Assembly: GCA_963575745.1 (NCBI GenBank)
Contig: CAUYUJ010020151.1
Location: forward strand, 62,001-126,000
Length of the DNA: 64,000 nt
Direction: 5' to 3'
Origin: Prorocentrum cordatum
Lineage: Eukaryota > Sar > Dinophyceae > Prorocentrales > Prorocentraceae
Part shown: positions 13,798-54,690 of the stretch, one piece after another
Layout of the letters: each line of letters begins with the position of its first letter
How positions within the stretch are numbered: position 1 is the stretch's first letter
Translations under genes and position numbers: made by a program
The notes under the pieces: model-generated
What the model saw: only the letters and a program-made list of their open reading frames with translations
What the model was told of the DNA's origin: nothing
Database searches by the model: none

Positions 13798-14380
13798 ACG
13801 GCTGAAGGCCGTAGTAACTTGAAGATCCCAAGGAGTTGAGCGCAGGTCTGGGGACGGGGCGAAAACCGCCAGGTCCTCGGCCACAGGGCTGCGCGCCAGG
13901 CTTGGCCTGGCAGGGCGAAAACAGCTACAGTGGGGCCAGGGGCCACTATGGCCACACGCAACACGAGATTGCAGTGTGGACGGTATTGCTGGCACACATA
14001 CTTGGGTCCAAAGGCAGGAAGTGCGCGTACCAGGAGGGGCGGCAGGATGCCGCAAGCTGGGTCTGTAGTCCAAGGAGCGGCTGAAGACCGCTGTCTGATA
14101 GAGAATCCCAGGGTTCAAGCGCGTCTCGGGAGTGGGCCTCGGTCGGTCCCAAAGCAGCATAGCCGAGCACAGGACCATTCGGGCCACTGGTGAGAACCAC
14201 TACAGCGGGGCCAGGGGCCAGCTAGGGTCTGCGCGCTACGCTCCCCCGCGCAGCGAAGCAGATGGTATTGCTGGTCGACACGCTTGGGTCCAAAGGCAGG
14301 AAGTGCGTGGACCAGGAAAGGGGGCAGCGGGGCTGCCACACGGTTGAAAGAGAAGGTAAGGCAGCTGAAGGCCGCACATA
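13798..14380 (-). repeat. 282-bp tandem repeat with TGAAG hairpins, 3' of the last ORF
   Basis: TTGGGTCCAAAGGCAGGAAG occurs near 14,005 and 14,287, and flanking sequence matches in register, so the period is about 282 bases. Three TGAAG-loop hairpins mark the units: 13,798-13,812 (ACGGC/GCCGT), 14,076-14,092 (AGCGG/CCGCT plus a C-A mismatch) and 14,361-14,375 (GCAGC/GCCGC, one mismatch). The segment lies just downstream of the final minus-strand stop at 14,411, so I read it as 3' untranslated sequence of the giant element. Confidence 0.7.
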
Positions 14381-14410
14381 GTGCGTAGTGAGATTGTCAT
14401 TTCGGGCTGT

Positions 14411-14965
14411 CTAGGTGCTGGATGTATGGGAAGTGAGCTCAATCTCTCCATCGGTGCCTCTTTTCGCCTCGCTCGTCAGGTCTGCCTCCACCACGCTTGC
14501 CTCCCGTCTGCCAGCGGTGTCGTGCCAGCCGTCACTCCAGTCGCTCTGCCAGGTGCCCCAGGTGTCCCAGGAGCTTGCAGCGCGGTCTCGCCAGCTGCTC
14601 TGTTGGAGGTTGCCCTCGCCCTTGCCGTCGGGTCGGGTGTGTCGCAGGTAGTCGGCCCGCAGTTTGGCCCAATCAATGCGATAGCCGTACCTCGTGTCCA
14701 TCAGGTAGGCGTTGCACCCGCAGCCCTTCCAGTCGTCGAGAAACTTGTTGATGGTCGCTTCCGTGTGCAGTCTCGGGTCTGATTGGGGCTCCCTGGATCC
14801 AGGGGGCCAAATGCGCTGCGTGTAGGCGGTCCACAGCGCGCAGAATACTGCACCCAACTCCGACTGGTACCTGGCGAGGCGTTTGGCGGGTGGTTCGTCG
14901 TGACGCTCCAAGTCCACAATGCCCAGCCAGACCTTGTACATGGGGCCCCCGTGTGAGTCGGTCAA
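14411..14965 (-). CDS. C-terminal domain of the giant element
   Basis: About 184 residues, beginning TDSHGGPMYKVWLGIVDLER and ending in a Ser/Thr/Glu-rich tail before the stop at 14,411. It overlaps the previous frame by four bases, so a frameshift rather than a real start is likely. The block from PMYKVW to RIDWAKLRADYL is conserved in two diverged copies at 6.3-6.8 and 11.0-11.4 kb. It is therefore a real domain under selection in this family. I do not recognise it. Its position at the extreme 3' end of the coding region could suit RNA 3'-end recognition, but that is speculation. Confidence 0.5.
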   Translation of the reverse strand: MTDSHGGPMYKVWLGIVDLERHDEPPAKRLARYQSELGAVFCALWTAYTQRIWPPGSREPQSDPRLHTEATINKFLDDWKGCGCNAYLMDTRYGYRIDWAKLRADYLRHTRPDGKGEGNLQQSSWRDRAASSWDTWGTWQSDWSDGWHDTAGRREASVVEADLTSEAKRGTDGEIELTSHTSST

Positions 14966-15612
14966 CAGTTGAGCGTATGGCGCTCCGTCGAACGAGGATA
15001 GGTAGGTCTATGTCCAGGGACCTGTGGGTTACGCAGTGGGGGACGACGGGTCCGCACGTCGCCCCTGTCGCGGGCGCTCTCATCATCCTCAGATCCCCTG
15101 GCTGCACTGGTGTTTTGGTCGGTGTTAGCCGGGCCACCTCCGGCAGCAATCGGGTCACGTTCGGAGCTGGGTTCTGAGCTGTCTGCCGTTGGGCTCCGCT
15201 GAGGCGCCTTGTCGCCTGGGCCGTTGTCGTCAACCTCCGTGGCAGAGTCCGAGCAGGATACAGGAGGAGGGGACTCGCGGGGTTCCCCAAAGTCGGGTGA
15301 CTCCACCTTTTCCGTAGGAGGGATCACGTCTTCACCGCTCTCGTCCTTGACAGTGTGGTCGGGCGGGCCCGGGAGACCCAGACGCGAGTCGTCGCCTCTC
15401 GTACCCAGGGACTTGACTGTGTCGGCCGCCGTAGGGGTGCCAGGCCTGTCCTCACTCATGGTCTGCACGCGTGACTCGGCCAAGGAAGTGATGGTCGCAG
15501 AGGCGAGGGCATCGGCGCGGAGGCTGAGTAGGAAACCCGTCAGTGTGCCCAGCTCGTGTCTGATGGGACTGAGGCCACTCGCCGGGGCCAGGATCGAGGC
15601 GTGCCTCACCAA
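14962..15612 (-). CDS. Ser/Pro/Asp-rich linker of the giant element
   Basis: 216 residues, mostly low complexity: Ser, Pro, Asp, Glu and Arg, with no fold evident. It joins the zinc-ribbon segment upstream to the conserved C-terminal domain downstream. The diverged copies at 7.0-7.5 and 11.5-12.1 kb have an equally disordered Arg/Pro/Ser-rich stretch at the same place, which supports a flexible linker rather than a separate gene. Confidence 0.4.
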   Translation of the reverse strand: MVRHASILAPASGLSPIRHELGTLTGFLLSLRADALASATITSLAESRVQTMSEDRPGTPTAADTVKSLGTRGDDSRLGLPGPPDHTVKDESGEDVIPPTEKVESPDFGEPRESPPPVSCSDSATEVDDNGPGDKAPQRSPTADSSEPSSERDPIAAGGGPANTDQNTSAARGSEDDESARDRGDVRTRRPPLRNPQVPGHRPTYPRSTERHTLNC

Positions 15613-15615
15613 GGA

Positions 15616-17181
15616 CTACCTATGCTTCTCGCCGCTGGTGAGGTGGGCGACGACTCGCGCCGCGGCCAGCCGTTTACCCTCCCAGCGCCGGTTGAGCGGG
15701 ACGCAATCCTCAGTGATGCATTCGCCGCACGCCGTCCTGAGGAAATCAATCAGAAGTCCGCCCGGCCAGGAGGCTTCATCACACCTAGGCTCTGGGATGC
15801 TGCTGTCGCGGTTGGTGAGACAGAACTGTCTCCAGGTGTAGTCCAGCCCAGGGTGGAAGTCACGGAGGTAGGTCACCAGCAGTCGCCGTGCGGACAGCCC
15901 TCCGCTGCCTGGTCCGCTCTTGGGGTCGTTTGGGCTCAGCGTGGGGTTGTTGACGTCCCTGTTGTCCAGGAGCGGGCCCTGCGGCACTGGCAGATCTGGC
16001 AGGAGCTCCATGAGCTGTGCTAGGGACCTGGGAGTTCGCTCTGCCGCGGAAGCAGCACCACCCGCGGCGCTAGACCCAGGGAGGTTTGTCGCTCTGGCCT
16101 TGGTGAAGCGATCCTGGGCCTTGGCGTCCGCGCCTAGCCATGGGAAAGACTTGAATATGTCCACTGATACCTCAGCTCCGATCTGGCAGCTGAGCGTCGG
16201 GAGGACAGGGGCCTCGGCAGGGTACAGCGCTCTAAAGTCCCGATCCAGGATGTGGTCCAGGGTAGCAGGACCGATATTCCATACCGGGACCAGGCAGCGT
16301 CGACAGCACCAGGTGGCGTTCCATCTGCGCTCCCACCAGGCTATGGCTCGCCTGTCGATGGGAGGCAGCCCGGCCTGCTCGGGAACCCCTACCCCTTCCG
16401 CAGGCTTCCATATGAAACAGCCCAGGGGCGGGGCTCCTGTGTTCCAGACGAGGAGCGGAGCCCCCGGGGGGCATGTGTCGCACCGGGCGGAGTAGATTTG
16501 GCTCCGGGCAGCTTTGAGGCCGAACCGTTCGTCTCGGATCCGTAGGATGGGAATGGTGGTGTTGGCACGCTCAGGGATCTGCATTCCCGTCGGCGTCATG
16601 ATGAGGTCCGATAGCGATCTCGTGTCCGCCTGGGGGCTGCATCCGAAGCCAAGTGGGAGGTGGCCCAGGGAGGGGAGAGCGTCCGCCTTGTCGTTGCTAG
16701 CGGCACCCGTCCTCTGTTGTTCGTGTTCCTTGACCTTGTCGGCAATTGTCGCACCTGTCGGTGCTGGAATGCCCTGATCCTCCAGGTATCGTATCCAGCA
16801 GGTCTCGCAGTGCCACCCCATGTTTGCGCCGTTGAGGTCGGCCTGGGGCCTATTCTGAGCGACCATCAGGCGCGTGTCGTCGGAGATCCACGTGCCATCG
16901 GTGGAGCGTAGCTGGTCCCTCCCGCACCTGTCGCACCTGAACCTGCCGTTTTTCTGCTCGGGTGCGAGCCTTTCGTCAGGAATGCGCGGAGGGTCCTGCT
17001 TGGTGCCTGGGGCGGGGGTGGACGGCAAGGGGGTTTTGAGGTCGGTATTGGATAAGGCGAATCCGCCGCCGATGTATGCGAGCCCCGCAAGCCGATCATC
17101 GGCACCCAGGGAGGCGTCGGTTCCCGCCAGCGCGACGTGTAGCGCGCACACCGAGCAGCGGTGCGTACCCAGGGAAACCAA
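15616..17181 (-). CDS. Multi-zinc-ribbon protein segment of the giant element
   Basis: 521 residues with repeated CxxC pairs: CSVC near residue 9, CDRCG and CETC near residues 83 and 127, CDTC near 236, CCRRC near 302 and CGEC near 490. These look like treble-clef or zinc-ribbon modules that could bind nucleic acid. Trp-rich patches (WWERRWNATWCCRRC) separate them. The segment follows the helicase and two smaller fragments on the same strand. I cannot assign a family. The stop at 15,616 is immediately followed by the linker frame, which suggests a polyprotein. Confidence 0.45.
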   Translation of the reverse strand: MVSLGTHRCSVCALHVALAGTDASLGADDRLAGLAYIGGGFALSNTDLKTPLPSTPAPGTKQDPPRIPDERLAPEQKNGRFRCDRCGRDQLRSTDGTWISDDTRLMVAQNRPQADLNGANMGWHCETCWIRYLEDQGIPAPTGATIADKVKEHEQQRTGAASNDKADALPSLGHLPLGFGCSPQADTRSLSDLIMTPTGMQIPERANTTIPILRIRDERFGLKAARSQIYSARCDTCPPGAPLLVWNTGAPPLGCFIWKPAEGVGVPEQAGLPPIDRRAIAWWERRWNATWCCRRCLVPVWNIGPATLDHILDRDFRALYPAEAPVLPTLSCQIGAEVSVDIFKSFPWLGADAKAQDRFTKARATNLPGSSAAGGAASAAERTPRSLAQLMELLPDLPVPQGPLLDNRDVNNPTLSPNDPKSGPGSGGLSARRLLVTYLRDFHPGLDYTWRQFCLTNRDSSIPEPRCDEASWPGGLLIDFLRTACGECITEDCVPLNRRWEGKRLAAARVVAHLTSGEKHR

Positions 17182-17545
17182 GAGTGGCGGCAGGGACGAT
17201 CTTCTCGAGGACGAGCACCGGCGCTTTCAGCTGAAAATCCTGCCTGCCCATTTCACTCCAGGTCTGCGGGCAGCCGGCTGCCCGCGCATCCGGGTGGTGG
17301 TGCGCCGCCGCCGCGAGCTTGGAGATGTGGGGCAGGATTGCCTCGATGCGGCCGTGGAGGTCGGCTAGGTCGTCTAACGTGAGGCTCCAGGTTCGTGCAA
17401 AGTCGTGACGGAACCCTCGGTGCGCCTCGTGCCAGGGGACGCAGAAACCCAGGATGGCTTCGATGACGTCCCCGGTCTGCTCTGCGTGAGAGAAGGGCCA
17501 CAGGAACACGCGCGGCTCGCGGAGCATTGGCATCATGACGACCAA
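17096..17545 (-). CDS. Unassigned fragment between helicase and zinc segment
   Basis: 149 residues containing HAEQTGDVIEAILGFCVPWH and LDDLADLHGRIEAILPHISK, predicted helical. It overlaps the start of the next frame by about 85 bases, as expected for one continuous coding region with a frameshift. No family recognised. Confidence 0.35.
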   Translation of the reverse strand: MVVMMPMLREPRVFLWPFSHAEQTGDVIEAILGFCVPWHEAHRGFRHDFARTWSLTLDDLADLHGRIEAILPHISKLAAAAHHHPDARAAGCPQTWSEMGRQDFQLKAPVLVLEKIVPAATLGFPGYAPLLGVRATRRAGGNRRLPGCR

Positions 17546-17590
17546 GAGCGACCGGGGCCTTGCAGGATTCCGTGGGGAGGCCGTCGGTGT

Positions 17591-18046
17591 CTATGATCTC
17601 CTTACAGATCTCTCCCGCTTAGAGCCGTCGGAAGCGCCACGGAGGATGTCCTGTAGCCCGGCCATTCCAGGGTGCTTCCTGTGCCTGCAGCAGTCCTTGG
17701 TAGCAGTGCTCCACGCCTTGGGAACCTGCCGGAAGAGCCCCTTGGGGGTACACTGGCGCCGCCCACAGAGTGTTACACGTCTCCCTCTGACGTGTGGCAC
17801 CGGTGGAAGGGAGTCGTCGTGGATTGCGTAGTTCGCGCCATGCCAGGGGGTGCCCAGGCCGAGCGTCCACGCCATTGCGGCCCAGAGCATGTTGTAAACT
17901 AGACTGGTTGCGTCTAGTCCCAGGGACATGTCGACCAGGAAGCCCAAGTGCGACCACGCCTTGCGGTCGAGTTTGCCCGGATTTCGCGGTGTCTCCGCCA
18001 GTGAGAACTCGTGCGGGCGCAGCCCTGACACCAGATAGATGAGCAC
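17591..18046 (-). CDS. Unassigned CxxC-containing fragment downstream of helicase
   Basis: 151 residues. An N-terminal helical half (SHLGFLVDMSLGLDATSLVY) is followed by TLCGRRQCTPKGLFRQVPKA and a CCRHRKH motif, possibly a zinc site. It lies between the helicase C-terminus and the next fragment on the same strand. No family recognised. Confidence 0.35.
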   Translation of the reverse strand: MLIYLVSGLRPHEFSLAETPRNPGKLDRKAWSHLGFLVDMSLGLDATSLVYNMLWAAMAWTLGLGTPWHGANYAIHDDSLPPVPHVRGRRVTLCGRRQCTPKGLFRQVPKAWSTATKDCCRHRKHPGMAGLQDILRGASDGSKRERSVRRS

Positions 18047-18205
18047 GTGGAAGGCAGGCGTCGAGAGAATATCATTGAGGCCGGCCGAGATTAGCTTCCC
18101 CAGGGAGTCCCAGTCGAAGTCCTCATCCAGGGGAGTGTTGTGTTGTAGCGCTCGGCGAAACCAGTAGCCTGGGCGTCACGTGCTTTCTTTTTGGCCGCGT
18201 CCAGC

Positions 18206-20882
18206 TCATTTTGTCCGCTCTGCCTTTGCGTCGCAGCTCCAGGCAATAGGCGAGGGTACCCGGGAGGCGAGGGCGTGCAGCGGGTCGAAGCTCTCGTCGA
18301 TGACCAGGGAACTCCTGTGGCCAGCGGGGGCACTGCCACTGAAGCGAACCCAGAGGCGGGTCAGGCGCCCGTATTCAGAGAGCACGCGCAGCTGGGACCA
18401 GGTGGCATTGGCGAACATGCGCCCGTCTCCCAAGATCAGGATGTTCCGCTTGGCCCTGGTGATCGCCACGTTCAGGCGTTTGGCGTCGTCGACAAAGCCC
18501 CAATTGTGGCCCCCGTTGCTCCTCGTAGTTAGTACAATTACGATGTCCGCCTCCCCTCCCTGGCTGGAGTCTATGGTGGTGAGCTTGAGCGCGCCACTCT
18601 TCATGTGCTCGCCCGCAACCTGCCCGAGTCCAGGGAAAGAAGTGCCGATGGCTGTATGGGCGTTGTGGTCCTCCCGAAAGACGTTTTCCCACCGGAGAAC
18701 GTCCACCTTGTGGCCTTGAGGGGAGGGTCCAGGGCCGAGGGTGTCTTGCCCGTCGCGAGCGGTGCCGCCTTTCCCTTTGCCTGACTTCCCCTTCTTGCCA
18801 CCTTTAGAATTTCGCAGGGCGCCGGAGAGATGGCGGGGGCCCCGCGGCCAGCCATCCGTGAGGATAGCCGTCTGAAGCTGGTTGCCAACCACAATTCTGA
18901 CAGAGGTGCCTTTCTCGAGCTCAGGCAGAAGTGCCCGCACGATGTCCACGGCCAGTGCTGCTTCAGGGAGGTTGGCGTAGCCTGGTTGGAGGGTAGACGT
19001 CACTTCCCAGGAGGGCGTGTCGACCAGCTGGAGGCGGTGCTTGTCTCCGTTTTGCGGAGGGTCCAATTGCTCAAGGGTCGCGCGGCGTCCTCGTCGGAAC
19101 CAGTGAGAGACGCCAGCTGTGTCAGTCGTCCGGGTTCCCAGGGTGTGATGTCTCTCCATGGGATGCCTTCGACGATGGGCCTGTCCCTGAGCGGGTCCAA
19201 GATGCCAGACGTCATGCCCTTGCCGTAGTAGGCTGCATTCGGAAAGGCAAGTAGCTGCGGATGCATGCGGTAGCAGATCGAAAGGTGGACCACGGCCGAC
19301 TCTTGGCCGCGGAGGGCGTGGAACATCCTGTCGAAAATGCTAACACAGAGTCCCAGGTCGTTCGCAAGCTTGGAGAGCACCGTTGGGGGCAACTGGTTCG
19401 GATCGCCCACCAGGACCAGGGCCCCGCCGCTGTTGATCAGGTTTACCATAGACATGAGCGCGTGGAGCTCCGTGGCCTGCCCAGCCTCGTCGATTACCAG
19501 GAGGACGATGTGGGGGCTGTCCTTCTGTCCGAGGGCCTCGGCCGCCTCGTGTGTGGACATGACTACCCTGGCGTCTCGTAGTAGGTTCGCCTTGTAGAGC
19601 CTGAAGTCCTGGCTCTTGTCCCCGTCCTGGAACGGGAATTCCCCGTGGGCGTTCTTCTAGTGGCCCTCAGGTGTCAGGTCGACGAGTGCCTCGTTGACGC
19701 GCTCCTTCCTTGCCAGGCGCACGAACTTCCCAAGAAACCCCGTGTCGGGATCGAGGCGTTGTTGCCGATGTGCTTCGGACATCGCCGGAGCTGGTTGGTC
19801 AACCGCTGCGTTGGAACCGGCGGCCAACGCAACTGCCTGCCCCGGGCGTAAGCGACATCCCCACATGTCCAGGCAGGCCACAGAGAAGGTGGTCTTGCCT
19901 GTCCCAGGGGGTCCGTGCACCAGTACGGCGCGGTGATGTAAGGTGGCCTGAAGGGCCTTGGTCGCGTCGCTGTTCGGCTTGTGTTTGCCCACCCTGTCAC
20001 GGAAGGTGTCCAGGCTGGGAGCGGGGCGCACCCTCTGGAAGACGGAACCTGTCGCGTCCGAGATCTCGTCGTCAGAGAAAGCCTTCAGACCCAGGGGAAG
20101 CGGAGGTGCCTGTGGTAGAAGGCCGCATCGAACAGCCTGCATGTGGTCGGCGTCGGGAACGTCGAAGCCCAGGGTGACGGCAGCCCTGGCCCTCAGGCTC
20201 AGGCCCAAAGAGCAGGTGCGCCTCAGGTCGTTGGCCGCAAGTCGATCGGCACGTGGGGCGTGCACGAAAGCTAAGAGAAAGGTCAGAGGAGACAGCTGGT
20301 GGGCGAACAGGTCCGCGGGGTTCTGTCGGAGGTGGTAGATCTGGCCAAGAGCCCAGCACTGGCGCCAGAACTGGATGTCGGAAGGGGCCTCGTCTACTCG
20401 ATACCAGGGAGCGTCTTCGCTTTGGGGCCGCTTCGCCTTGGTCTCGCCTCCCTTCCCACTGTTGCACAGCACTATGCACCTGTCGGAGGGGTACCTGGTA
20501 GACGTGCTGAGGCCGAGCGCTTGGGCGTCTCTTGGGTGGATGGCACCTCCCAGGGAAGGGGGGGCCACCAGACCGTGACGTCTGCGATCTTGTCGACTGT
20601 GGGGCCCGTGACGGAAATATACAGTTCCCTGCCTTCCTTGTCCCCTTCCTGGGTCCTGGATGCAACTTTGTACTTAGAAGGCCACTCCAGCAAGTAGAGT
20701 TCCTTACCTTCTGGGAGATCCATCGCGTTGCGTAGCCGAAAGGTGTCTAGGTCATCCAGGTCTGAGTTGGCGTCGATCCTAGTGATGCGGACGCCGAGCG
20801 CACAGTTACCTTTCCTGGCCAGGTCTTCGCGTGTGGATTCTTTTCCGTTGTCCACCGTCTCGACAGAGGCCTGGCTTTCCAC
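18206..20882 (-). CDS. SF1 helicase (UPF1/DNA2-like), in four overlapping frames
   Basis: Four consecutive minus frames (20,882-20,472; 20,568-19,657; 19,560-19,000; 19,159-18,206) together carry the SF1B signature in order. An N-terminal beta-rich part leads to Walker A GPPGTGKT with SNAAVD (motif Ia) in the second frame. The third frame has DEAG and GDPNQLPPTV, then YRMHP. The fourth has TIDSSQGGEADIVIVL (motif V) and NVAITRAKRNILILGD (motif VI). Catalytic residues of the ATPase are intact. The protein would unwind RNA or DNA 5' to 3'. Helicases are usual in Helitrons and some RNA viruses, not in non-LTR elements. It follows RT and RNase H on the same strand with only a zinc/proline linker between. 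The frame changes are single-base shifts. Confidence 0.85.
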
Positions 20883-21774
20883 CCAGGCGATCCTCCGTAG
20901 CGTCTGTCCACGATCCTGGAGAGTAGGGCCACTGTGAGGGGAGTCGAACGGCCCAAGTCAGTTCCCCAAGTGCCGCCTTGGGGTGAAACCTGGAAAGCGG
21001 AGAGTCCAGTGGTACAGAGTAGAGACTGACTACGTCGGCAGCCGCCTGCAGAGCCAACGAATCATCCTGCTGCTGCTCCGCCGGGCTTGTTGGTGATAAA
21101 GCGTCATCCTCGGAAAGCATCACCCTTCGCTGCTGATTGGGCGGGCCCCAGGCGGGCGGAGGGTGGGGCGGCGGGGGCGGGGGTAGAGGTCCGACCGAGG
21201 CGTCAGTAGGTGGCCCAGGCGCAGCAAGCGGAGGTCCGATGGTCGATTTCGCTCGCGTCCTGGTCTCGTCGCCGTGGTCGGGCTGTCTGAAGCCCGTCCT
21301 TGTAGCCTCACGTCTGTCCATCAGGTGCGTCCGCACCTGCTCTGGGTCGGACCTGGTACCTCCAGGGCAGTTGTACGTTGGCTCGTCGTCCCAGAGAGGG
21401 TAGGTGGTGGGCACGTGCAGCGCGTCTTCTGGGATCACGAGACCCGGGGGCGAGCGTGCACCGTCTTGGGAAACCGAAGGTTTGACGGGCCTCCAGCCGA
21501 GCCAGGGCTTTCGCTCAATAAACACACGGTGATTTGTGTCCCAGGAACCACCCGTGCAACTGCTCCACAAATTCCCAGGAGTGACAAAGGTGTTCGGGTC
21601 GGGCCAACCGTGTTGGTAACGCGCATCCGACATCTCGTAGCGCTTGTCACTTAGGATGTGCTGTGTGTCGTCCACGGACTCTTGGCAGATTTCGCACCAG
21701 CGGCGCCGCCCGCCGTTGAAGTAGACCCAACGCATCCAGGGACAGAACCGGGCAGGGAAGACGCGTGTGCCCAA
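20806..21774 (-). CDS. Zinc-knuckle and proline-rich linker between RNase H and helicase
   Basis: 322 residues. The N-terminal part has FCPWMRWVYFNGGRRRWCEI, a CEIC pair followed by TQHILSDKRYE, reminiscent of the Cys/His knuckle that follows many non-LTR RT domains. The middle is Pro-rich (PPPPPPPHPPPAWGPP). The C-terminal part is acidic and leads into the helicase. It overlaps both neighbouring frames, so it is probably an internal piece of the polyprotein. Confidence 0.45.
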   Translation of the reverse strand: MGTRVFPARFCPWMRWVYFNGGRRRWCEICQESVDDTQHILSDKRYEMSDARYQHGWPDPNTFVTPGNLWSSCTGGSWDTNHRVFIERKPWLGWRPVKPSVSQDGARSPPGLVIPEDALHVPTTYPLWDDEPTYNCPGGTRSDPEQVRTHLMDRREATRTGFRQPDHGDETRTRAKSTIGPPLAAPGPPTDASVGPLPPPPPPHPPPAWGPPNQQRRVMLSEDDALSPTSPAEQQQDDSLALQAAADVVSLYSVPLDSPLSRFHPKAALGELTWAVRLPSQWPYSPGSWTDATEDRLGGKPGLCRDGGQRKRIHTRRPGQER

Positions 21775-23330
21775 ACGGAATGGCGGCCCGTCCTCACTGT
21801 ACGGCAGACAGGAGGGCCACCGTCGGATGGGCCTTGGTTGTTCTTAGGCATGATCCCAGGGCGTCGCGTCGGTCCCAGGGCGGCAGCTGAAGGCTGCGGG
21901 CTGTCGCTGCGGCAGCTGAAGGCTGCGTACTGTCGGGGCCTTAGTGCGTCGGGGCGGGGGCGATCAGGGAGAGGAGGGGGAGGAGGATTTTCGAGAGCGT
22001 CAACGAACCGGGCAACCTGGTCCAAGTCGCAGAGGTCGACACCAGCGGCGGGGAAGAGGAGAGGAGGGGGGCGATGGGCACCGTCCCAAGCGACCCAGGA
22101 GGTGACCGCCAGGTCACCGGCGTGTCTGAGGGCGTCGGCCCAAAAGACCCCTAGAGTCGCGAGGCGGTCGGCCGCTTTGTTGAGGCGGCGTCGTACCGCC
22201 TGCCATGTAAGGGTCCAGCCGGACTCACTGGCTCGCCTGAGGGCGAAATCCATCTGCTGCGCCAGGTGGAGCCGTCGATAGCGTCCGGTGCCGGCCCCGT
22301 ATCGGATGGCCGCTAGGTTGTCGCCGACCACTCTGACACCACGAAGCGTGCTTTCGACGTGGGGGAGCAGGGCGAGGCCAGCTCTGCATCCTGAGGCCTC
22401 AGCCGTCTGTGCGTTGTCACAGCCTGGGAGGGCAACAACAGCGACAGCAACGACGCGCGGGTAGCCGCGGCGCGGGTCGTGTCTCCAGAGGACGGCGGCC
22501 GCACCGGAGACTTTGCCCCCCTCTCCGATTCGGCGCGCTCCCCCGTCGAACGTGAGCTCGTAGGGCCATTGGGCAGAGTCGGCGGCGGGGAGCGGGGAGT
22601 CCCCGACAGTGATTTCCTCGCCCGCATCCATATCCCTGCCGGCTCTGAGCACGAGGGTGTGCTGGTCACAGAGTCTGCAATAAGCTTTGGTCCAGAGGGC
22701 ACTGGGGTCCCTGTCTGTCCTGGGGCATGGGAACCAGCCCACCCCAGGGGGCATCCAACTCGCCCTGGGGTCGCAAGTTTGGAGAACGGCGAGCCTGTCC
22801 CCACTTCGTGTGGCTCTGGTTGTGATAGGGAGGCGCCGGATTTCCCCTCCGGCTCGTGGTGCCTGTCTGCCGAGATGCGGTCTGGCGGCCCCGCGTATAC
22901 GCAGTAGGCGTGGCCCTTGGGGATTGCACAGCTGACAGGGGTCGAGCATAGGGGCCCAGACCGCGGTTTCATCTGCCGGGGCGCCCGGGGGCTGCCCTTC
23001 GCGCAGGTCTTCGTCCTCCTCGTCGTCTTCCTGGAGATCGGAGTCGGGCACAGTGATACCCTGGACGATGAGCCTGGCGGCTTCGTCGGCGCCAATAGGA
23101 GTGCAGTCCAGGTTCACACAGCATCTGAAGGAAGTCTCGTGTAATAGGCGGCAAACTAGCCTCTGGTGTTGTCCCCTGGTGCACATCGCCGTAGCAAGGT
23201 CCCTGGGGTGGTCTGGGCCTCTAGCATTTTCCCAGGCAAAGGCAGCCGCGGGGCACCAGCACCACGCGTGCTCGGTGGTGGCTTCCCCAAGGCCACAGAG
23301 AGGGCAGGCTCCGTAGAGTCCCTGCCGCAT
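21651..23330 (-). CDS. RNase H segment of the giant element
   Basis: 559 residues. Residues 9-26 form a CPLC...HAWCWC zinc knuckle. An acidic linker lies near residues 97-110. An RNase H fold spans about residues 258-396 with the four catalytic positions visible: Asp in TFDGGAR, Glu in QTAEASGCRAGL, Asp in VVGDNLAA and Asp in LNKAADRLATLG. RNase H would remove the RNA template strand after first-strand synthesis. The domain is C-terminal to the RT, as in other RNase H-bearing non-LTR clades. The last 100 residues contain two TGAAG hairpins (21,883-21,926). Confidence 0.8.
   Translation of the reverse strand: MRQGLYGACPLCGLGEATTEHAWCWCPAAAFAWENARGPDHPRDLATAMCTRGQHQRLVCRLLHETSFRCCVNLDCTPIGADEAARLIVQGITVPDSDLQEDDEEDEDLREGQPPGAPADETAVWAPMLDPCQLCNPQGPRLLRIRGAARPHLGRQAPRAGGEIRRLPITTRATRSGDRLAVLQTCDPRASWMPPGVGWFPCPRTDRDPSALWTKAYCRLCDQHTLVLRAGRDMDAGEEITVGDSPLPAADSAQWPYELTFDGGARRIGEGGKVSGAAAVLWRHDPRRGYPRVVAVAVVALPGCDNAQTAEASGCRAGLALLPHVESTLRGVRVVGDNLAAIRYGAGTGRYRRLHLAQQMDFALRRASESGWTLTWQAVRRRLNKAADRLATLGVFWADALRHAGDLAVTSWVAWDGAHRPPPLLFPAAGVDLCDLDQVARFVDALENPPPPPLPDRPRPDALRPRQYAAFSCRSDSPQPSAAALGPTRRPGIMPKNNQGPSDGGPPVCRTVRTGRHSVWAHASSLPGSVPGCVGSTSTAGGAAGAKSAKSPWTTHSTS
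21883..21926 (-). repeat. Two TGAAG hairpins in tandem
   Basis: GCAGC-TGAAG-GCTGC at 21,883-21,897 and again at 21,912-21,926. The first is two bases after CCCAGGG. They lie in the C-terminal part of the RNase H frame, translated once as PSAA and once as AFSC (two frames). Confidence 0.7.
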
Positions 23331-23407
23331 AGGGGCGCTGATGCTGACGTGATGCCTTCTTCGCTCTGCAGCGAGTGGGCGCAGATCTTCGGGGAGGACG
23401 TCGTCGC

Positions 23408-23896
23408 TTAGGAGAGGCCAGAGGGCGGCCTCACCGCTCCAGGGCCCGAGCAGGAGTCACACCAGGCCTGGCCGTCATCCCTTTGCCCGGCAGCGAGCCA
23501 GACTCTCTTGGCCGGCCTGCCGCAACCGCATTGGTGCGGGATCCTGTCTGCCACGCTTCGCCAGCGCGCAGACCCGGGCAGCCCGTTGGCCAGGAGCCGA
23601 AGGACGTGATGTGCCTCGGTGAAGGATGCACAATGCCCCAGGAGAGACCATTCCGCGCCGTCTGTCTGTGCCCACCTGCGCTCGTCGCTGGTTGTGGCGA
23701 ACCACCTGTTAACAATATGCCCGTGGAGCTGCGTCCAGGCCGCGACATAGACCACGCGACCAAAGTAGCGAGCCCGCAGTCGGGGGGGCTCTCTCACCGC
23801 ACGATTGAATAAGTCAGCAGCCCTGGAGTCAGTCAGTACCTTGGAGCCGGGTCTGTGGGGTTCGTTCCGCAGGGCAAATTCCCGAGCCCATTTCAC
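23408..23896 (-). CDS. Connector between RT and RNase H, giant element
   Basis: 162 residues containing VLTDSRAADLFNRAVREPPR and IPHQCGCGRPAKRVW...CDSC, a possible four-Cys zinc site near the end. It lies directly between the RT frame (ends 23,906) and the RNase H frame (begins 23,330), all on the minus strand. It probably corresponds to the thumb/connection region. No independent family recognised. Confidence 0.4.
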   Translation of the reverse strand: MKWAREFALRNEPHRPGSKVLTDSRAADLFNRAVREPPRLRARYFGRVVYVAAWTQLHGHIVNRWFATTSDERRWAQTDGAEWSLLGHCASFTEAHHVLRLLANGLPGSARWRSVADRIPHQCGCGRPAKRVWLAAGQRDDGQAWCDSCSGPGAVRPPSGLS

Positions 23897-23905
23897 GAGT
23901 TTATT

Positions 23906-42828: not shown

Positions 42829-42829
42829 C

Positions 42830-43132
42830 GCCCGCAGGCCTCAGGATGGGGAAGTAGTGTGGCGCCAGGCAGAGCCACAGGGCTCTGGAGATCCAGGAGC
42901 CTGGTTGCCCGTTTGCTCTGTGGTCTAACAGCATGCTCTGAGCCAGGCACTGTGCCTGATCGCCGTTGACGGAAGTCCTTCCCTCTGGGGCAGGCATGGT
43001 CCCTCTGCCTGCCCCCTCCTCGTCTCGCTGTCTGGCGTCAAGTGTGCGGATGAGCCTGTCCAGGTGCTCTTCTCTCGTGCTGCCCGGTGGTAGTCTGCCC
43101 TGAGGAATAGCAACGTTCGCTCGGTTGAGCAA
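42830..43132 (-). CDS. Small connector segment of the giant element
   Basis: LNRANVAIPQGRLPPGSTRE, LDRLIRTLDARQRDEEG and WISRALWLCLAPHYFPILR: a short ordered stretch leading by frameshift into the RING-containing frame (PYDVLYRWMTRAEM). No family recognised. Confidence 0.35.
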
Positions 43133-43225
43133 CTGTCGTATGTCCGCGTGCCAGGGCGTGGTTGTGCTCGCGGCTTCCGCGGTAGCGGCCTCTGCTCCAG
43201 GGCGCGCCCTGTCTTCGTGCGTGGG

Positions 43226-43948
43226 TCACTGATTTCTTGGATTCGACCTCTGCTCGGTCCTGGCCTGCTCCGCTCGCAACCTCGCTCCGGCCTCTGCTGC
43301 CTGCCGATCCCCTGACAGGATGGCGGTCTGAAGGGAGCCATTCGCGTCTAGGTGCAGCATCATTCGTTCCTGCAGCAGCGGCGCAATGTAGCTGCCTACT
43401 TCGGGTGCCTCGAGCGTGGATCCCGTGGCCCTGGAAGATGAATCTGCTTCTGAAGCAAGGACTACCTGGGCGTCACTGCATGAGAAGACGCCTCGCTCTC
43501 TCCACCATGTGGCTGCCTGGTTGATGATGTTAGTACTGATATTGATGGTCCTAAATGCCTGCTCGAGCACGCTCCGGCCCCTGTCCGTAGCAGTGCCCCA
43601 TATGAAGGGGACCAAGATTCTACTCCACCGCATGCCTGGGGTGACGGAGTTACTGGCCACCATCCTCCTGATTCGCCGCACCTCATCGACGAAGGCTTCT
43701 CGCTGGGAGCGCTCCGCATGGGATAGGTCCTGCACGGGGTATGGGGGGGGTCTGTGGGGGGCTGTCACTCCGCCCCCCTCTCCGCCAGTGGGGCCTCTCT
43801 CGTCGCGCCAGGGGTTGTCTACATCCATGGGGGAGTGTCCACCGCTGGGACGTTCAGCACGCTCGTGGTCACGGGTACCACTGTCTGACTCCAGGCGCCG
43901 GTTAACGGCGTCTGTGACGAGGTTTCCCAGGGGGGTACCTTGCCCCAT
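43226..43948 (-). CDS. Unassigned helical segment of the giant element
   Basis: 240 residues. MDVDNPWRDERG is followed by HAERSQREAFVDEVRRIRRM, VTPGMRWSRILVPFIWG and AFRTINISTNIINQAATWWR. The C-terminus is Ala/Arg/Glu-rich and possibly coiled coil. It overlaps the upstream zinc segment's end. The family is unknown. Confidence 0.4.
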   Translation of the reverse strand: MGQGTPLGNLVTDAVNRRLESDSGTRDHERAERPSGGHSPMDVDNPWRDERGPTGGEGGGVTAPHRPPPYPVQDLSHAERSQREAFVDEVRRIRRMVASNSVTPGMRWSRILVPFIWGTATDRGRSVLEQAFRTINISTNIINQAATWWRERGVFSCSDAQVVLASEADSSSRATGSTLEAPEVGSYIAPLLQERMMLHLDANGSLQTAILSGDRQAAEAGARLRAEQARTEQRSNPRNQ

Positions 43949-45581
43949 TTGGGCATGTATTGGGCGCCAGTCGGTCTCTCATGACCTCGGCTGCCTGGGA
44001 GTGTGGACTGTCTCTGTTGTGCCACCAGCGTCTGCTGAGGACCATACCGTCTCGTGCGTCGCTTATGGCTCGGTCCAGGTGGTCCCCGCCGATGGTGGCG
44101 CTTAGCCAGCGGAGATCGTCCAGGTGTGCCACGGTGTTCGGCCCTATCGCGACAGTCGCGGTTGTCCCACTCGATGGGGGGCCCCTCCAGTGCGATGGCG
44201 GGTACGTGCTCGGGTCGTCGTGATAGAGCTGCGGGGGGAACCAGCCATCTAGTCGTCCTTCTGGGCAGGTCCTGAGGACGCGACGTATTTTCTGGCAGAC
44301 ATTAAGGGCCCAGGAGTCTGGCGCGGAGCAGAGTAAGGCAAGGGAGACCGTTGCTGTGCGAAGTTGCCAATCGCCTCCAAAGTCTTCGAGGCCTACGGTG
44401 CCTTCGTAAGCCCAGATTTCAGCCAGGCCTGAGGCTTGGGCCACCATATGTCTCCAGGCTCCCAGGAGTTCGCTCACGAGCCAGGTCGGGGTGAAGTCGG
44501 AGGGGCCAGGTTGGGCTGGGGAGTAGAGATGCTCTGCGACTGGGGCGTACCGCATGCCCGCTCTGACAAGCTGCAACAGCAAGATGGTGTCCAGAAGGTC
44601 GAGCGCGTGCCTGTTGAGTGGCTGTTCCGGGTCTGCGTCTGGGTGACCCTGCGGGAGGTCGCCTGATTGCCGCTCGCCCTGGTTGTAGCTCCATGGGTTA
44701 GCCAACCTGTGGCAAGTGATGCAGTGTCGTCCAGTGGGGTCTCGGAGCATCCAAGAACCGCAGAAGTCGCATCGTTGGGTCGGGCAGAAGAAGTCCTGCA
44801 GCAGTAGTCGATGCGCTGTGGTGGACCAGGGCCATGCGTTGTCGTTGCTGTCGCCCCCTTGAATCGGTACCCCAGGGATGCCCATTGAGCTGGCAGTTAC
44901 TCCTGTAAGGGCGGGCTCTACCCATGGTGCTGGGCCTCTGCCTGCTTGTCGTCTCGAGTGTACGTCGTCCCCAACCCGTCCAAGATTTCCCCTCCTGATG
45001 GCCCACTGTCTGATGTCCCCATGGCCCGGAAAGTGAACTATGTTCTGTCTGCGCTCATGAATTAGGACTCTATGCGCATACTCCCTGATTTCGTCGTCCA
45101 TGGGGTCCTGGGTCCCGTCTGGTCGGTTAGGGCCGCTACTGTGCGGGGGCACTGCGTCCTCGGGAGATCTGGTGGGCATGAGCATCCTGTCTGTGTCGAA
45201 TCCACTCGGGAGCTCCATGCCTATGTCGCAGTAGTGCGCTGCAGCGACCATGGCCACGTATTCGAGACGCGCTAGTTGCCTTTCCGCCACGGAGGGATCA
45301 TCGGCGCCCAATATTTCCCTTCTTATACTGGGGTCATGGGCGATGCTCGCAAAGCGAAAAAGGCGAGGACCTGTAACGGGTCTGGCTGCACACCCCCGAG
45401 GCGCCCTTCGTAATCTCCTCCCGTGACGGACCAAACAAGCCAGGAGATGTCCAGGATGGCGAGGGTTGGGGCCGAGGTGGCTCGTTGCGAACCGAGTCCA
45501 GGGAGGAGGGCTTCTGCTGGAGCCGCACGCATGGGGCTGCCTGCTCGTATGCCTGGGTGACCAGGGCGATGCCCCCTCCAC
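43902..45581 (-). CDS. Zinc-ribbon segment of the giant element
   Basis: 559 residues. A ribbon-like FFCPTQRCDFCGSWMLRD with CITCHRL is present near residues 265-295. The flanks are rich in Trp and ordered helices, for example TWLVSELLGAWRHMVAQASG and LDDLRWLSATIGGDHLDRAI. Real coding joins the frame near the A5 run at 45,357-45,361 (T5 on the sense strand), after which RFASIAHDPSIRREILGADD is read. It probably binds nucleic acid. No named family. Confidence 0.45.
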   Translation of the reverse strand: MEGASPWSPRHTSRQPHACGSSRSPPPWTRFATSHLGPNPRHPGHLLACLVRHGRRLRRAPRGCAARPVTGPRLFRFASIAHDPSIRREILGADDPSVAERQLARLEYVAMVAAAHYCDIGMELPSGFDTDRMLMPTRSPEDAVPPHSSGPNRPDGTQDPMDDEIREYAHRVLIHERRQNIVHFPGHGDIRQWAIRRGNLGRVGDDVHSRRQAGRGPAPWVEPALTGVTASSMGIPGVPIQGGDSNDNAWPWSTTAHRLLLQDFFCPTQRCDFCGSWMLRDPTGRHCITCHRLANPWSYNQGERQSGDLPQGHPDADPEQPLNRHALDLLDTILLLQLVRAGMRYAPVAEHLYSPAQPGPSDFTPTWLVSELLGAWRHMVAQASGLAEIWAYEGTVGLEDFGGDWQLRTATVSLALLCSAPDSWALNVCQKIRRVLRTCPEGRLDGWFPPQLYHDDPSTYPPSHWRGPPSSGTTATVAIGPNTVAHLDDLRWLSATIGGDHLDRAISDARDGMVLSRRWWHNRDSPHSQAAEVMRDRLAPNTCPNGARYPPGKPRHRRR

Positions 45582-45928
45582 GCGTGGTGCGTGAGGAGTT
45601 CCAGGTTGCTGGTCTCGCGCGGTGTCCTCGGTGCCCCTCGATCGGGGATCTCGCGCCAGGGACCGTCGATACGCACTAGGTGGCGGCGGAGGGCGTTCAT
45701 GGTGCCCCCCCTGCCAGTGACCCTAGCGTCCGCCGCGCGCGGCCCACGCATGGGTCCGCCCGCCTCCCGACTGGCTGCCCAGTCAGCGTTCGCGTGTCCT
45801 GTGGCGTCCAACCATCGAGCGTGGAGGTCGGCAGCGCACTGCCCTCCGTCTCTCTGGGCTTGGCTGGGGCCCTCAGCTTCCGATGGGGGCGATCTGGTTT
45901 TCCCTCCGCAGTTCTTCCTCCAGGGCAA
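45323..45928 (-). CDS. N-terminal piece of the zinc-ribbon segment
   Basis: 201 residues. The ordered C-terminal part TLAILDISWLVWSVTGGDYE and PDPLQVLAFF flows directly into RFASIAHDP of the next frame if one T is removed from the T5 run. The N-terminal half is Arg/Gly-rich. Confidence 0.4.
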   Translation of the reverse strand: MPWRKNCGGKTRSPPSEAEGPSQAQRDGGQCAADLHARWLDATGHANADWAASREAGGPMRGPRAADARVTGRGGTMNALRRHLVRIDGPWREIPDRGAPRTPRETSNLELLTHHAWRGHRPGHPGIRAGSPMRAAPAEALLPGLGSQRATSAPTLAILDISWLVWSVTGGDYEGRLGGVQPDPLQVLAFFALRASPMTPV

Positions 45929-46283
45929 GGTCGGGAGAAGGGTAGGAGGGCGGGTCGGGCATGAAGGGAGCTCTGGGAGCCACGCATCTCAACACGAAAG
46001 GGGAGCCGTTGGCCGTCCTGATGCGGGGCCCCCGCTCCCGACCTTGAGACGGGTCTTCGTGGCCGTGGCCAAGGCCGCGCGGGGGGCCATCTGGATGCCC
46101 CAGCCCAGGGGGCGGGTCAGGAGGGGAAAAGTTGGGAGAGGAGCAGGTGGGCGAGGGAAGGGAGACGCGAGGCGATCCCGCGGCAGCGATCGGAGGTCCG
46201 ATGTGATCGATCCGATCGACCAGGGAACCTGTCCCGACGGCGGGATCAGCAGAGACCCTGTTAGCGTTGGGCGCGTGAGGCCG

Positions 46284-46852
46284 TCACATGGACAACCCCG
46301 TCGTCGTTCCCGGGGAAGGTCGGTTACGGTCGGTCGTCTCAGCAGAAGGGCGTGCCTCTCTGTGGCCACTGCTGCCAGGCCCACCCGTCTCTTGCTGTCC
46401 CCCTCCTGGCTGAAGGCCAGACTCTTCTATGAGGTTAGCGGCGCGGAGGCTGGGCGCGGCTCTTGCGTCAGCGCTCGTGTCCCCAGGGAGAGGGGCGGCG
46501 GAGTCAAGGCGGAAGCCGTTTGATCTGTTCGTAATGCTGTCTGCGCCTGTCGCACGGTCTTCGGCGCGCCTTCCCAGGGGTGCTCCCGTTGCAGGGCTGG
46601 TCCCGTCAGCGTCTAAGTCGGCGTGGTCGGTCGGTCGCCCGCAGCTGGCGCGAGGGCCCACCTGGTGGGGGGGGCCCAGCACGGGAACACCAGGAGTCCC
46701 AAGAAGGTCGAAGTCGTCTCCGTTCGTGGTCACGGCCTCTGCGACTCTGTCTACGTCCATTGGCACTGTCTCTGGATCTCGAGCTGAAGGCTTGTCACTT
46801 CTGAGGTTACCCGATACGCCTTGGACCCTCGAGCTGAATGCTCGTTCCGCAT
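46284..46852 (-). CDS. Leader segment of the giant element, downstream of the YR insertion
   Basis: Begins AERAFSSRVQGVSGNLRSDK, which is homologous to TERAFSSRLQGTSSNLRGGE at about 53.7-53.8 kb. It shares the PMDVD and PSARD words with that region, so it continues the same Ser/Asp/Pro-rich repeat protein. Joined to DEPSARDS on the other side of the insertion it restores EPSARDSHAERAFSS, matching EPLARDSHTERAFSS. It is probably disordered, and its coding sequence is studded with TGAAG hairpins. Confidence 0.6.
46407..46844 (-). repeat. TGAAG/TGAAT hairpins, cluster of three
   Basis: On +: 46,407-46,421 CTGGC-TGAAG-GCCAG; 46,780-46,794 CGAGC-TGAAG-GCTTG (one G-U); 46,830-46,844 CGAGC-TGAAT-GCTCG. 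The first is translated as GLQP and the last as AFSS, that is, in different frames. This indicates selection on the nucleic acid. Confidence 0.7.
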
Positions 46853-46853
46853 G

Positions 46854-47422
46854 GAAAACGAGACTCAAGCTGGGGGGCGGGGGGCCTGCAGCGGCGGGGC
46901 GCCGGCTGCGGTGCCGCTCGCCTGCCGCCCGCGGCTGCCGACATGGCGCGTGCTGACCTTGGCACCGACGTGGGGCGATGCCTGGTGCAGGTCCACCAGC
47001 CCAGCCCAGGGTCTGCACTCCAGCAGAGCTGCGGGCACAACTGGGGAGTGGCACCCCAGCAGCCCAGCCTTTCCAACCCTGCCCACGGTCTACACCCTGG
47101 GCGGGCGGGCGGGCAAAACCAGGGAAGGGGCCCTGGCCAACCTAGACCCTCCGGTCCTGAACCAAAACTGCGCGGCGCCCCCCGCCCCGCCCCTCTCCCA
47201 ACGTTTTCCGTGACATGCAATGCTAGCCTCGCTGTCTGCGGAAAACGAGACTCAAGCTGGGGGGCGGGGGGCCTGCAGCGGCGGGCGCCGCAGCGGCGGG
47301 CGCCGGCTGCGGCGCCGCTCGCCTGCCGCCCGCGGCTGCCGACATGGTGCGCGCTGACCTTGGCACCGACGTGGGGCGATGCTTGGTGCAGGTCCACCAG
47401 CCCAGCCCAGGGTCTGCACCCC
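46854..47422 (-). repeat. B2-A2-B1 block, 3' end of YR element 1
   Basis: B2 is 46,854-47,021 and B1 is 47,241-47,422. Both start GAAAACGAGACTCAAGCTGG and end GGTCTGCAC, with a 15-base internal duplication in B1. A2 is 47,119-47,240, nearly identical to A1 at 53,285-53,406. About 97 bases between B2 and A2 (47,022-47,118) are not repeated elsewhere in the window. Confidence 0.85.
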
Positions 47423-53276: not shown

Positions 53277-53284
53277 GGCTGACA

Positions 53285-53406
53285 CCAGGGAAGGGGCCCT
53301 GGCCAACCTAGACCCTCCAGTCCTGAACCCAAACTGCGCGGCGCCCCCCGCCCCGCTCCTCTCCCTACGTTTTCCGTGACATGCAATGCTAGCCTCGCTG
53401 TCTGCG
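53285..53406 (-). repeat. A1 repeat, 5' end of YR element 1
   Basis: 122 bases almost identical to A2 at 47,119-47,240, running on + from ACCAGGGAAGGGGCC to GCTGTCTGCG. The outer edge abuts AGAATCTCGAGCTGAAGGC, part of the giant element's leader. Confidence 0.85.
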
Positions 53407-54498
53407 AGAATCTCGAGCTGAAGGCTCGTCACATCCGCGACTGTCCAACTGGGGGGCGGGTGGCTGACGAAAGTCTTCGGGGTTGCAGGAGTGCCCAGAG
53501 AGTTGACTGGTCGCTGCGTCGCCGTCGGCGCCGAACAGTCCGCTTGGGGCGTCCCAAGCTGCAGGCTCGCTCAAAACTGCTGTCTCGCTGGGAGCTCCTC
53601 GGGCTGAAGGCCCATTCTCTACGTGAGCAGTGCTGTCAACTCCAGGAAGGGCGGCGGGCGCGCGGCGACTCCCGTCGCCGCTCGTGGCCACATGCCCAGC
53701 GGCACTCTCGACGTCCATTGGTGCCGTCTCCGACTCTCGAGCTGAAGGCTCGCCACCTCTGAGGTTGCTCGATGTGCCTTGGAGTCTCGAGCTGAAGGCT
53801 CGTTCCGTGTGAGAGTCCCGAGCAAGAGGTTCGCCCCGCCTGAGACTGCCAGCCTGGGGGGCGGGAGGCGGACGAGAGTCCTCGGGATTACGGAAGTGAC
53901 CAGAGGGGCGACTGACCGCCGCGTCGCAGTCGGTGCCCGCCAGTCCACTTGAGGAGTCCCGAGCAGCAGACTCCCTCAAATCTGCTGTCTCACAGGGCGC
54001 TCCAAGGGCTGAAGGCCCATCTTCTATGTCCATTATGCTGCGTCCGCTGGGGGCGGCGGGGGGGCGGCGATAGCCATCGAGCCCTCTGTCAACGTCCGCG
54101 GGGGAAATCGGCTGCGCGGCGAGGGCATGGGTCTCCGCGGTGGCAGGGTTGGCCCATTCGCAGCTGAATGCTGCTTCTCTCGGCATTGAAGTGTCCAGGG
54201 GGGGAAGCTCGGCGGAGTGAAGGCGCAAGCCTCTGTGATGCGAGTCGGGTCCCAGGGCAGGCGTCTGCCCGTCTCCCCTCCTGTCACACCCGCGGTCACC
54301 CTCTGGGGAGGCCAGCCCTAGTCCCCCCGTCTTCGTCGTTGAGGCCCCTGGGTCGGTCGTCAGGGGCATCTCTCTGTCGATCGTCCGTTCGCGACCCGTG
54401 CGAACCTGGGTCCGTCGGGGGATTCGCTTGTTCTGGAGTGGGGCCCTCGCCCCCCGTGATCCTGGCACCGCCGTGAGCGATCCAGCTCTGCCCTGCAC
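53407..54498 (-). CDS. Ser/Pro/Asp-rich repeat leader of the giant element, upstream of the YR insertion
   Basis: A frame rich in Ser, Ala, Asp, Pro and Arg with recurring words EPSARDS, GPSA(L/R)GAP, APMDVE and (T/A)ERAFSS. No fold is evident; it is probably disordered. The frame is interrupted by the YR element after DEPSARDS and resumes at 46,852. It is entered from the preceding frame by a shift near 54,350. Most repeated words coincide with TGAAG hairpins in the DNA, so part of the protein repetition may be a by-product of RNA structure. Confidence 0.55.
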
Positions 54499-54690
54499 CG
54501 CCAGGAGAGAAGGAAATTGGGCGCCCGGCTATGGGCAGGGGAAGGGTAAGGGTGAGGGAGGGGGATAAGCTAGGCGGGAGGGCGTCATGCCTGTCGTTGT
54601 CAATCCCAGGGAAGCGACTGAAGGTCGCTATGTCAGTGTGTATCGCGGGGTTGAACGTGTCTCCCCGTCTTCCCATTTGGCTGAAGGCCA
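53414..54690 (-). repeat. TGAAG hairpin cluster, nine members
   Basis: On +, stem-loop-stem: 53,414 CGAGC/GCTCG; 53,601 GGGC/GCCC; 53,738 CGAGC/GCTCG; 53,788 CGAGC/GCTCG; 53,819 CGAGC-AAGAG-GTTCG (variant loop, G-U); 54,006 GGGC/GCCC; 54,160 GCAGC-TGAAT-GCTGC; 54,613 AGCGAC/GTCGCT (6 bp); 54,678 TGGC/GCCA. The loop is TGAAG unless stated. Stems differ in compensatory fashion while loop and size stay fixed. The hairpin at 54,613 directly follows CCCAGGGA. Confidence 0.75.

Follow-up and report, generated by a model that had tools for sequence, protein, structure and literature searches.

Constant-loop, variable-stem hairpins on the sense strand of a putative giant retroelement of Prorocentrum cordatum

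Introduction

Hairpin signals that are read through their loops have been described in several systems, of which the closest to the locus reported here are cited from excerpts of the respective papers. Stringent long interspersed nuclear elements (LINEs) tag their RNA by a 3' stem-loop, while relaxed LINEs rely on a poly-A tail (PMC5135761). The stem-loops of stringent LINEs, such as UnaL2 with its GGAUA pentaloop, SART1 and ZfL2, consist of a short stem and a 5-nt loop and are read by the machinery of the element (PMC5135761). Dispersed packaging signals, known from MS2 and from the pregenomic RNA of hepatitis B virus, comprise many stem-loops that share a motif in variable surroundings (PMC6281560). 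Smaug recognition elements are specific in the loop and nonspecific in the stem, and several may occur in the open reading frame (ORF) or 3' untranslated region (UTR) of one mRNA (PMC4053848). The present analysis concerns a 64,000-nt stretch of the dinoflagellate Prorocentrum cordatum (GenBank assembly GCA_963575745.1, contig CAUYUJ010020151.1, positions 62,001 to 126,000 of the forward strand), hereafter the window, in which at least 17 hairpins with a constant loop and variable stems lie within what is inferred to be one giant retroelement.

The likeness to stringent LINEs extends to the short stem, the 5-nt loop and three copies in the 3' region. Unlike in those elements, however, the hairpins are spread over the 5' region, the ORFs and the 3' region, the loop is a different one and the stem is a plain 5-bp helix. 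Nor are they restricted to the 3' UTR: in joined sense coordinates the first ~2.2 kb hold 11 of the 17, the last ~1.4 kb three, and the interior three. Multiple dispersed stem-loops with a common loop motif and variable stems are also what packaging signals present, but the locus here is a retroelement, and Pfam found no capsid family in the ORFs scanned. In the behaviour of loop and stem the hairpins resemble Smaug recognition elements; their loop, CUUCA or CNUCA, nevertheless lacks the GG of the Smaug loop CNGGN, and no SAM-domain protein appeared in the Pfam scans of ORFs. Terminons, the giant Penelope-like (PLE) retroelements of rotifers, likewise combine a giant reverse transcriptase (RT) element with structured RNA motifs, in their case hammerheads (PMC6431247, excerpt); here, by contrast, Rfam gave no match and the RT stands alongside RNase H and superfamily 1 (SF1) helicase ORFs. 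Titles and abstract openings of the papers listed revealed no retroelement carrying a comparable set of hairpins, and CUUCA was absent from the 10 listed of 34 matching papers on pentaloops and hairpin loops. The pattern is real, strong and unusual, and it is a variant of known loop-read hairpin signals, not a new category.

Anatomy of the hairpin unit

The original prediction had described about 18 hairpins, and 17 of these are copies of one defined 15-nt unit with a 5-bp stem and a 5-nt loop, at coordinates that agree within ~1 base (Table 1). The remaining site, 53,819 (loop AAGAG, or CTCTT in sense), is a decayed paralogue of the one at 53,414. All 17 hairpins lie on the minus strand, which is the sense (coding) strand of the element ORFs, and read NNNGC-CUUCA-GCN'N'N' or a near variant, the loop being CUUCA in 15 and AUUCA in two. 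Counted outwards from the loop, standard or sense-wobble pairing is found at positions 1 to 5 in 17, 17, 17, 15 and 15 of the 17 sites, and falls to 6, 2 and 5 of 17 at positions 6, 7 and 8, which sets a sharp stem limit at 5 bp. The predicted stem range of 4 to 6 bp thus narrows to mostly 5 bp, with two sites at 4 bp and a sixth pair at 54,613. Positions 1 and 2 are almost invariant (C-G and G-C, each in 16/17), and positions 3 to 5 vary in their letters yet stay complementary. Additional, weaker matches of a covariance model, described below, carry the loops CGUCA, CUGCA and CCUCA besides CUUCA, which suggests a loop core of CNUCA, although the matches with CUGCA and CCUCA may be due to chance.

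This anatomy bears on a derivation from tRNA anticodon arms or another known structured RNA. The 5-bp stem and the loop letters of the plus strand, CUGAAGG, resemble the anticodon loop of tRNA-Phe. However, all 17 sites conserve the first loop pair, unlike a 7-nt anticodon loop, ARAGORN reported no tRNA in the window and Rfam no match at gathering score, and such an origin is hardly credible.

Enrichment over chance

A perfect stem of at least 4 bp encloses the exact TGAAG loop at 12 of the 62 TGAAG occurrences on the plus strand, and at none of the 39 occurrences of CTTCA on that strand. These 12 exact hairpins comprise 11 previously listed sites and one at 19,945 that the original list had omitted, as it had the possible hairpin at 53554-53570. 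Dinucleotide shuffling (30 shuffles, 2-kb blocks) yielded a mean of 0.17 and a maximum of 1 exact hairpin, so that the shuffled control did not reproduce the family. TGAAG is also the most frequent 5-nt loop among hairpins (the runner-up occurs six times), and hairpins with 5-nt loops are overall close to chance (382 vs 358 +/- 19 in shuffled sequence). A looser scan that accepted any NTTCA loop and wobble pairs found 19 sense sites, 18 of them inside the element and one poor one outside it, at 57,452, against six on the other strand. Hairpins with ..TCA loops number 20 in sense and 2 in antisense, as compared with 200 and 200 for all 5-nt-loop hairpins. A similar picture is given by GCNTTCAGC, present in 19 copies over both strands: all 15 copies on the element sense strand pair at position 3 (one via G.U), and the control copies outside the element (61,628 and 31,481) or on its other strand (17,225 and 30,542) do not.

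Permutation of codons (300 per frame, three frames) left a mean of 0.26-0.32 and a maximum of 3 exact hairpins. This weighs against a repeated peptide, EPSAR or AFS, maintained by protein selection with the palindrome as its by-product. Four copies at 53.4-54.0 kb do read (E/G)PSA in a long frame, but within the open frame P0009 identical 15-nt sequences encode EPSAR at 53,738 and, in another phase, RAFSS at 53,788. The copies at 13.8-14.4 kb lie outside any ORF of at least 200 aa (the size class considered), and no homologue of P0009 was found among 7993 candidates scored. Because frames are broken in this copy of the element, arguments from frame alone are weak; that two hairpins stand 50 nt apart in each copy of a ~405-bp repeat suggests, for its part, that the two phases are old. 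Protein selection is a very improbable cause, in agreement with the original prediction.

Covariation and independence of the sites

Covariation was scored over 14 of the 17 sites, all within a single copy of the element, leaving out the near-duplicates 21,912, 53,414 and 53,788. The score of 0.705 compares with 0.230 in shuffled sets and was reached by 0 of 500 shuffles, 94.3% of the cells being paired, and sliding the partners lowered it to 0.180 or less. Two weaker measures gave less separation: pairs changed on both sides (four) were matched by 18/500 shuffles, and further pair types (10) by 74/500. A covariance model, R1, was trained on nine sites at 46.4-54.7 kb and run with filters off over both strands of the window, where it returned 50 matches with E no higher than 10, all E-values being approximate. 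Its top 17 matches are the 17 sites, including the six untrained ones at 13.8-38 kb (E 0.0026 to 0.052; Table 1). All 21 matches with E <1 are on the minus strand and inside the element, and the first plus-strand match has E 1.1. Confinement to the element, as originally claimed, thus holds as far as the window shows, the element edges having been drawn by eye.

Many of the sites are local duplicates (INDEPENDENCE). The pair 21,883/21,912 arose from a 29-bp duplication, and eight of the 18 listed sites sit in the two ~405-bp repeat copies, at 53.4-54.07 kb and 46.7-46.86 kb (pieces 74-79% identical), the second of which an insertion (46.86-53.41 kb) interrupts. Ahead of both 14,076 and 14,361 lies a 67-bp repeat (84%); the hairpin at 13,798 shares the ~280-bp spacing of these neighbours, with flanks that align poorly and show no clear repeat. 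By judgement aided by BLAST, with 13,798, 14,076 and 14,361 put together, about nine independent groups remain. Drawing one random member per group leaves 23-25 of 27 cells paired at positions 3 to 5, in comparison with a mean of 13.3 and a maximum of 22 in 2000 draws with shuffled arms. The groups therefore still pair beyond chance, and the earlier observation that both arms change together is borne out.

Duplication also raises the prospect of functionless micro-hairpins that multiplied within the element, either as insertions or when the template was switched. The length of 15 nt, a multiple of three, and the birth of several copies by local duplication are compatible with such mobility. 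Mitochondrial repetitive or double hairpin elements likewise form families of short palindromes within a genome, but there, as in sponges, the stems are conserved and the loops vary (PMC2800124, excerpt). A single mobile unit would be expected to carry the same stem in all its copies, and here the stems vary around a constant loop. Common stems and inserted units were not found: direct repeats of at least 4 nt flank 2/17 sites as against 11% of random positions, which is chance level, no empty site exists between the repeat copies, and sites that differ are equal in length. Spread without function is accordingly quite unlikely.

The host element and the distribution of hairpins

The hairpins occupy three parts of the window that are read as one element because an excess of CCTGG on the sense strand runs through all of them. 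They are inferred to form one decayed, giant non-long-terminal-repeat (non-LTR) type retroelement of ~27.6 kb minus insertions. Pfam searches of minus-strand ORFs matched RVT_1 (E 1.9e-6) and RVT_3 (E 0.00036), both slightly under the cut-offs, and the helicase halves AAA_11 and AAA_12, which pass them. These halves, of the UPF1-type SF1, lie at 18206-20568 in two separate ORFs on the same strand as the RT and RNase H ORFs and downstream of them; an SF1 helicase is an unusual addition for a non-LTR element. A putative APE-like endonuclease was recognised by eye and had no Pfam match. Reading frames are broken in places, the endonuclease-like and RT parts standing in different frames here and being continuous in the relative P0005. 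The RT ORF P0001 has relatives in four ENA proteins (40-42% identity over 42-57% of P0001), and no DNA relative was returned for it. No relatives were found in the viral contigs and genome contigs searched, no homologue of 37400-38361 among the ~8000 best-sharing candidates scored, and no target-site duplication of at least 10 nt for the element.

With the four extra sites of Table 1 included, 15 of 21 hairpins fall within 2.3 kb of the start or 1.7 kb of the end of the joined element, which make up 14.5% of its length, by cut-offs picked after inspection of the data. The apparent 3' edge, placed by eye at 12.95 kb, is ~0.85-1.4 kb away from the three 3' hairpins.

The absence of R1 matches with E <1 outside the element, in the small sample of host sequence that the window offers, counts against use of the hairpins by the host, be it for silencing, for decay or as a signal shared by mRNAs across the host, instead of in replication of the element. 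Host mRNAs do carry Smaug-type hairpins, in both ORFs and UTRs (PMC4053848, excerpt). A target of host attack would, however, be expected to decay and not to multiply. A host function of this kind appears quite unlikely.

Proposed recognition elements on the transcript

A constant loop, a free but paired outer stem, a single orientation, repetition and restriction to the element within the window together favour cis-acting recognition hairpins. The stem-nonspecific, loop-specific pattern, as in Smaug sites, the UnaL2 GGAUA loop and dispersed packaging signals, is the trace expected of a protein that reads the loop and requires a stem of any sequence. The favoured reading, at about an even chance, is that the hairpins act in this way on sense RNA of a single giant (~27.6 kb) non-LTR-type retroelement. 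An RNA-binding protein of the element or of the host would read the loop, with the stem merely holding it in place, and the many sites would mark the element RNA for assembly into ribonucleoprotein or packaging and for choice as template by its RT. CxxC stretches noticed by eye in the element ORFs are candidate readers.

Several observations weigh against recognition on the transcript. Replacing the real flanks by shuffled ones in 121-nt folds raises the mean stem probability from 0.32 to 0.55 (antisense from 0.30 to 0.49), and in the real flanks it is at most 0.32 at 12/17 sites; real-flank folding being below shuffled, nothing shows selection for local accessibility. Neighbouring copies that share a stem may pair with each other and so account for part of this loss. 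Wobble cells (three sense G.U vs two A.C) leave the choice between RNA and DNA undecided, and neither a capsid nor an RNA-binding family was found in the ORFs scanned by Pfam. The covariation, furthermore, concerns sites within a single element copy and not orthologous sites across copies. Between the two ~405-bp copies, stem differences (46,780; 53,819) are uncompensated. Three of the four hairpin pairs there are identical in 41/43 columns, compared with 259/358 elsewhere, a count from which the fourth, decayed pair (53,819/53,414) is excluded; since 21/392 windows of 15 columns in the repeat equal this conservation, conservation alone is not special.

The same data touch on a signal in single-stranded DNA, in which hairpins formed in the cDNA, or while the locus is briefly single-stranded, would guide strand transfer, template switching or integration. 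The fixed orientation fits any single-stranded form, and both the wobble cells without RNA preference and the poor local folding of the sense RNA agree with it. The sites 14,076 and 14,361, on the other hand, stay paired through a G.U that exists only in sense, while 37,914 and 46,780 show the reverse, and the closest mechanistic parallels found work on RNA. A DNA signal is unlikely. The original prediction had suggested a structural signal in RNA or DNA that might serve packaging, RT or helicase binding, copy-choice or methylation; the single orientation favours the transcript or cDNA over double-stranded DNA or methylation, and local folding in the real flanks is unfavourable to the structural part of that claim.

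A second motif on the sense strand

The pentamer CCTGG occurs 204 times on the element sense strand against 75.5 expected from codon permutation, and its antisense CCAGG 80 times against 64; in stretches outside (4.3-12.7, 46.88-53.4 and 55.2-64 kb) the counts are 74 vs 55 and 52 vs 52. Slightly different edges (26.9 kb) were used for this count. The profile follows the element edges, and the excess extends over all three reading phases of the ORFs and persists at 13-14.6 kb, a region without a long ORF. Of the copies, 136 read CCUGGR in RNA letters, and many lie within TCCCTGGGA. CCCTGGG is found 41 times against 6.5 expected, in all three phases, phase 0 being seldom used.

A second hairpin family built on CCTGG was considered and is unconvincing: only the first (0.338 vs 0.286 +/- 0.031) and sixth (0.338 vs 0.280 +/- 0.028) of seven flank positions exceed shuffles, the other five being close to or under them. 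Cytosine deamination is disfavoured as a source, as CCGG is depleted in the element (109 vs 211) and in the surrounding sequence (159 vs 240) alike, and the strong rise of CCTGG is limited to the element sense strand.

Taken with the hairpins, CCTGG could belong to a two-part, frame-independent tag, in which at least 17 CNUCA-loop hairpins near both ends and ~200 CCUGG along the length would let the element's own proteins condense the RNA as a genome, by analogy with RNA viruses. This extension is tentative and unlikely.

Coordinates and neighbouring features

Table 1. Hairpins and element parts in the window. E-values are those of covariance model R1; stem positions are counted from the loop; sequences are given in sense orientation.
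Feature	Coordinates	Strand	Evidence
Hairpin ACGGC-CTTCA-GCCGT	13798..13812	-	outside R1 training, E 0.0026
Hairpin GCGGT-CTTCA-GCCGC, sense U.G closing pair	14077..14091	-	outside R1 training, E 0.029
Hairpin GCGGC-CTTCA-GCTGC, sense G.U at position 3	14361..14375	-	outside R1 training, E 0.052
Hairpin GCAGC-CTTCA-GCTGC, 29-bp tandem duplicate	21883..21897	-	outside R1 training, E 0.013
Hairpin GCAGC-CTTCA-GCTGC, 29-bp tandem duplicate	21912..21926	-	outside R1 training, E 0.013
Hairpin GACGC-CTTCA-GCGCC, A.C at position 4	37915..37929	-	outside R1 training, E 0.027
Hairpin CTGGC-CTTCA-GCCAG	46406..46420	-	exact scan, R1
Hairpin CAAGC-CTTCA-GCTCG, A.C at position 4	46780..46794	-	pairing table, R1
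Hairpin CGAGC-ATTCA-GCTCG	46830..46844	-	pairing table, R1
Hairpin CGAGC-CTTCA-GCTCG	53414..53428	-	exact scan, R1
Hairpin TGGGC-CTTCA-GCCCG, U.G at position 5	53600..53614	-	pairing table, R1
Hairpin CGAGC-CTTCA-GCTCG, read EPSAR in long open frame	53738..53752	-	pairing table, ORF frame
Hairpin CGAGC-CTTCA-GCTCG, letters as 53738, read RAFSS in that frame	53788..53802	-	
Hairpin (T)GGGC-CTTCA-GCCC(T), 4 bp	54005..54019	-	exact scan, R1
Hairpin GCAGC-ATTCA-GCTGC	54160..54174	-	pairing table, R1
Hairpin GCGAC-CTTCA-GTCGC, sixth pair A-T outside	54614..54628	-	exact and looser scans, R1
Hairpin (A)TGGC-CTTCA-GCCA(A), 4 bp	54677..54691	-	exact scan, R1
Probable extra member, loop CGTCA, stem GGAGC/GCTCC	26173..26189	-	R1 E 0.11
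Probable extra member GGCC-CTTCA-GGCC	19943..19959	-	R1 E 0.11; exact scan
Possible extra member CGAGC-CTGCA-GCTTG, sense G.U pair, maybe chance	53554..53570	-	R1 E 0.76
Possible extra member CTGGC-CCTCA-GTCAG, maybe chance	28326..28342	-	R1 E 0.87
Decayed paralogue CGAAC-CTCTT-GCTCG, A.C mismatch, not counted as member	53819..53833	-	
Element 3' part: RT, RNase H-like and SF1 helicase ORFs, 3' region	12950..29400	-	Pfam, CCTGG profile
Element middle part, RING-finger ORF	37400..46857	-	zf-RING_2, CCTGG profile
Element 5' part, hairpins densest	53409..55110	-	

Where the other ~405-bp repeat copy aligns with the possible member at 53554-53570, it has no such hairpin. The insertion at 46857-53409 carries split direct repeats (46897-47021 = 47298-47422, 96%; 47118-47240 = 53284-53406, 97%) and an ORF with a weak match to PF00336, under the cut-off; it is a candidate, presumably a tyrosine recombinase (YR) retroelement of PAT/Ngaro type placed inside the hairpin-bearing repeat. 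A plus-strand RT at 34543-36291 (RVT_1, E 2e-14) lies within a stretch lacking the CCTGG excess and appears to have inserted independently into the giant element; the label 'R2-like' is that of the original prediction only. Just beyond the 3' edge of the element, a tandem array with 5.6 copies of a 73-bp unit (12294-12703) adjoins a gap of 100 N (12194-12293).

Significance

Binding and mutational tests of the hairpins are simple, because the unit is 15 nt long and its loop is known. If recognition on the sense transcript is correct, P. cordatum would harbour a virus-like, dispersed recognition system inside a non-LTR element, and the way in which very large retroelement RNAs are distinguished from host RNA would become testable.

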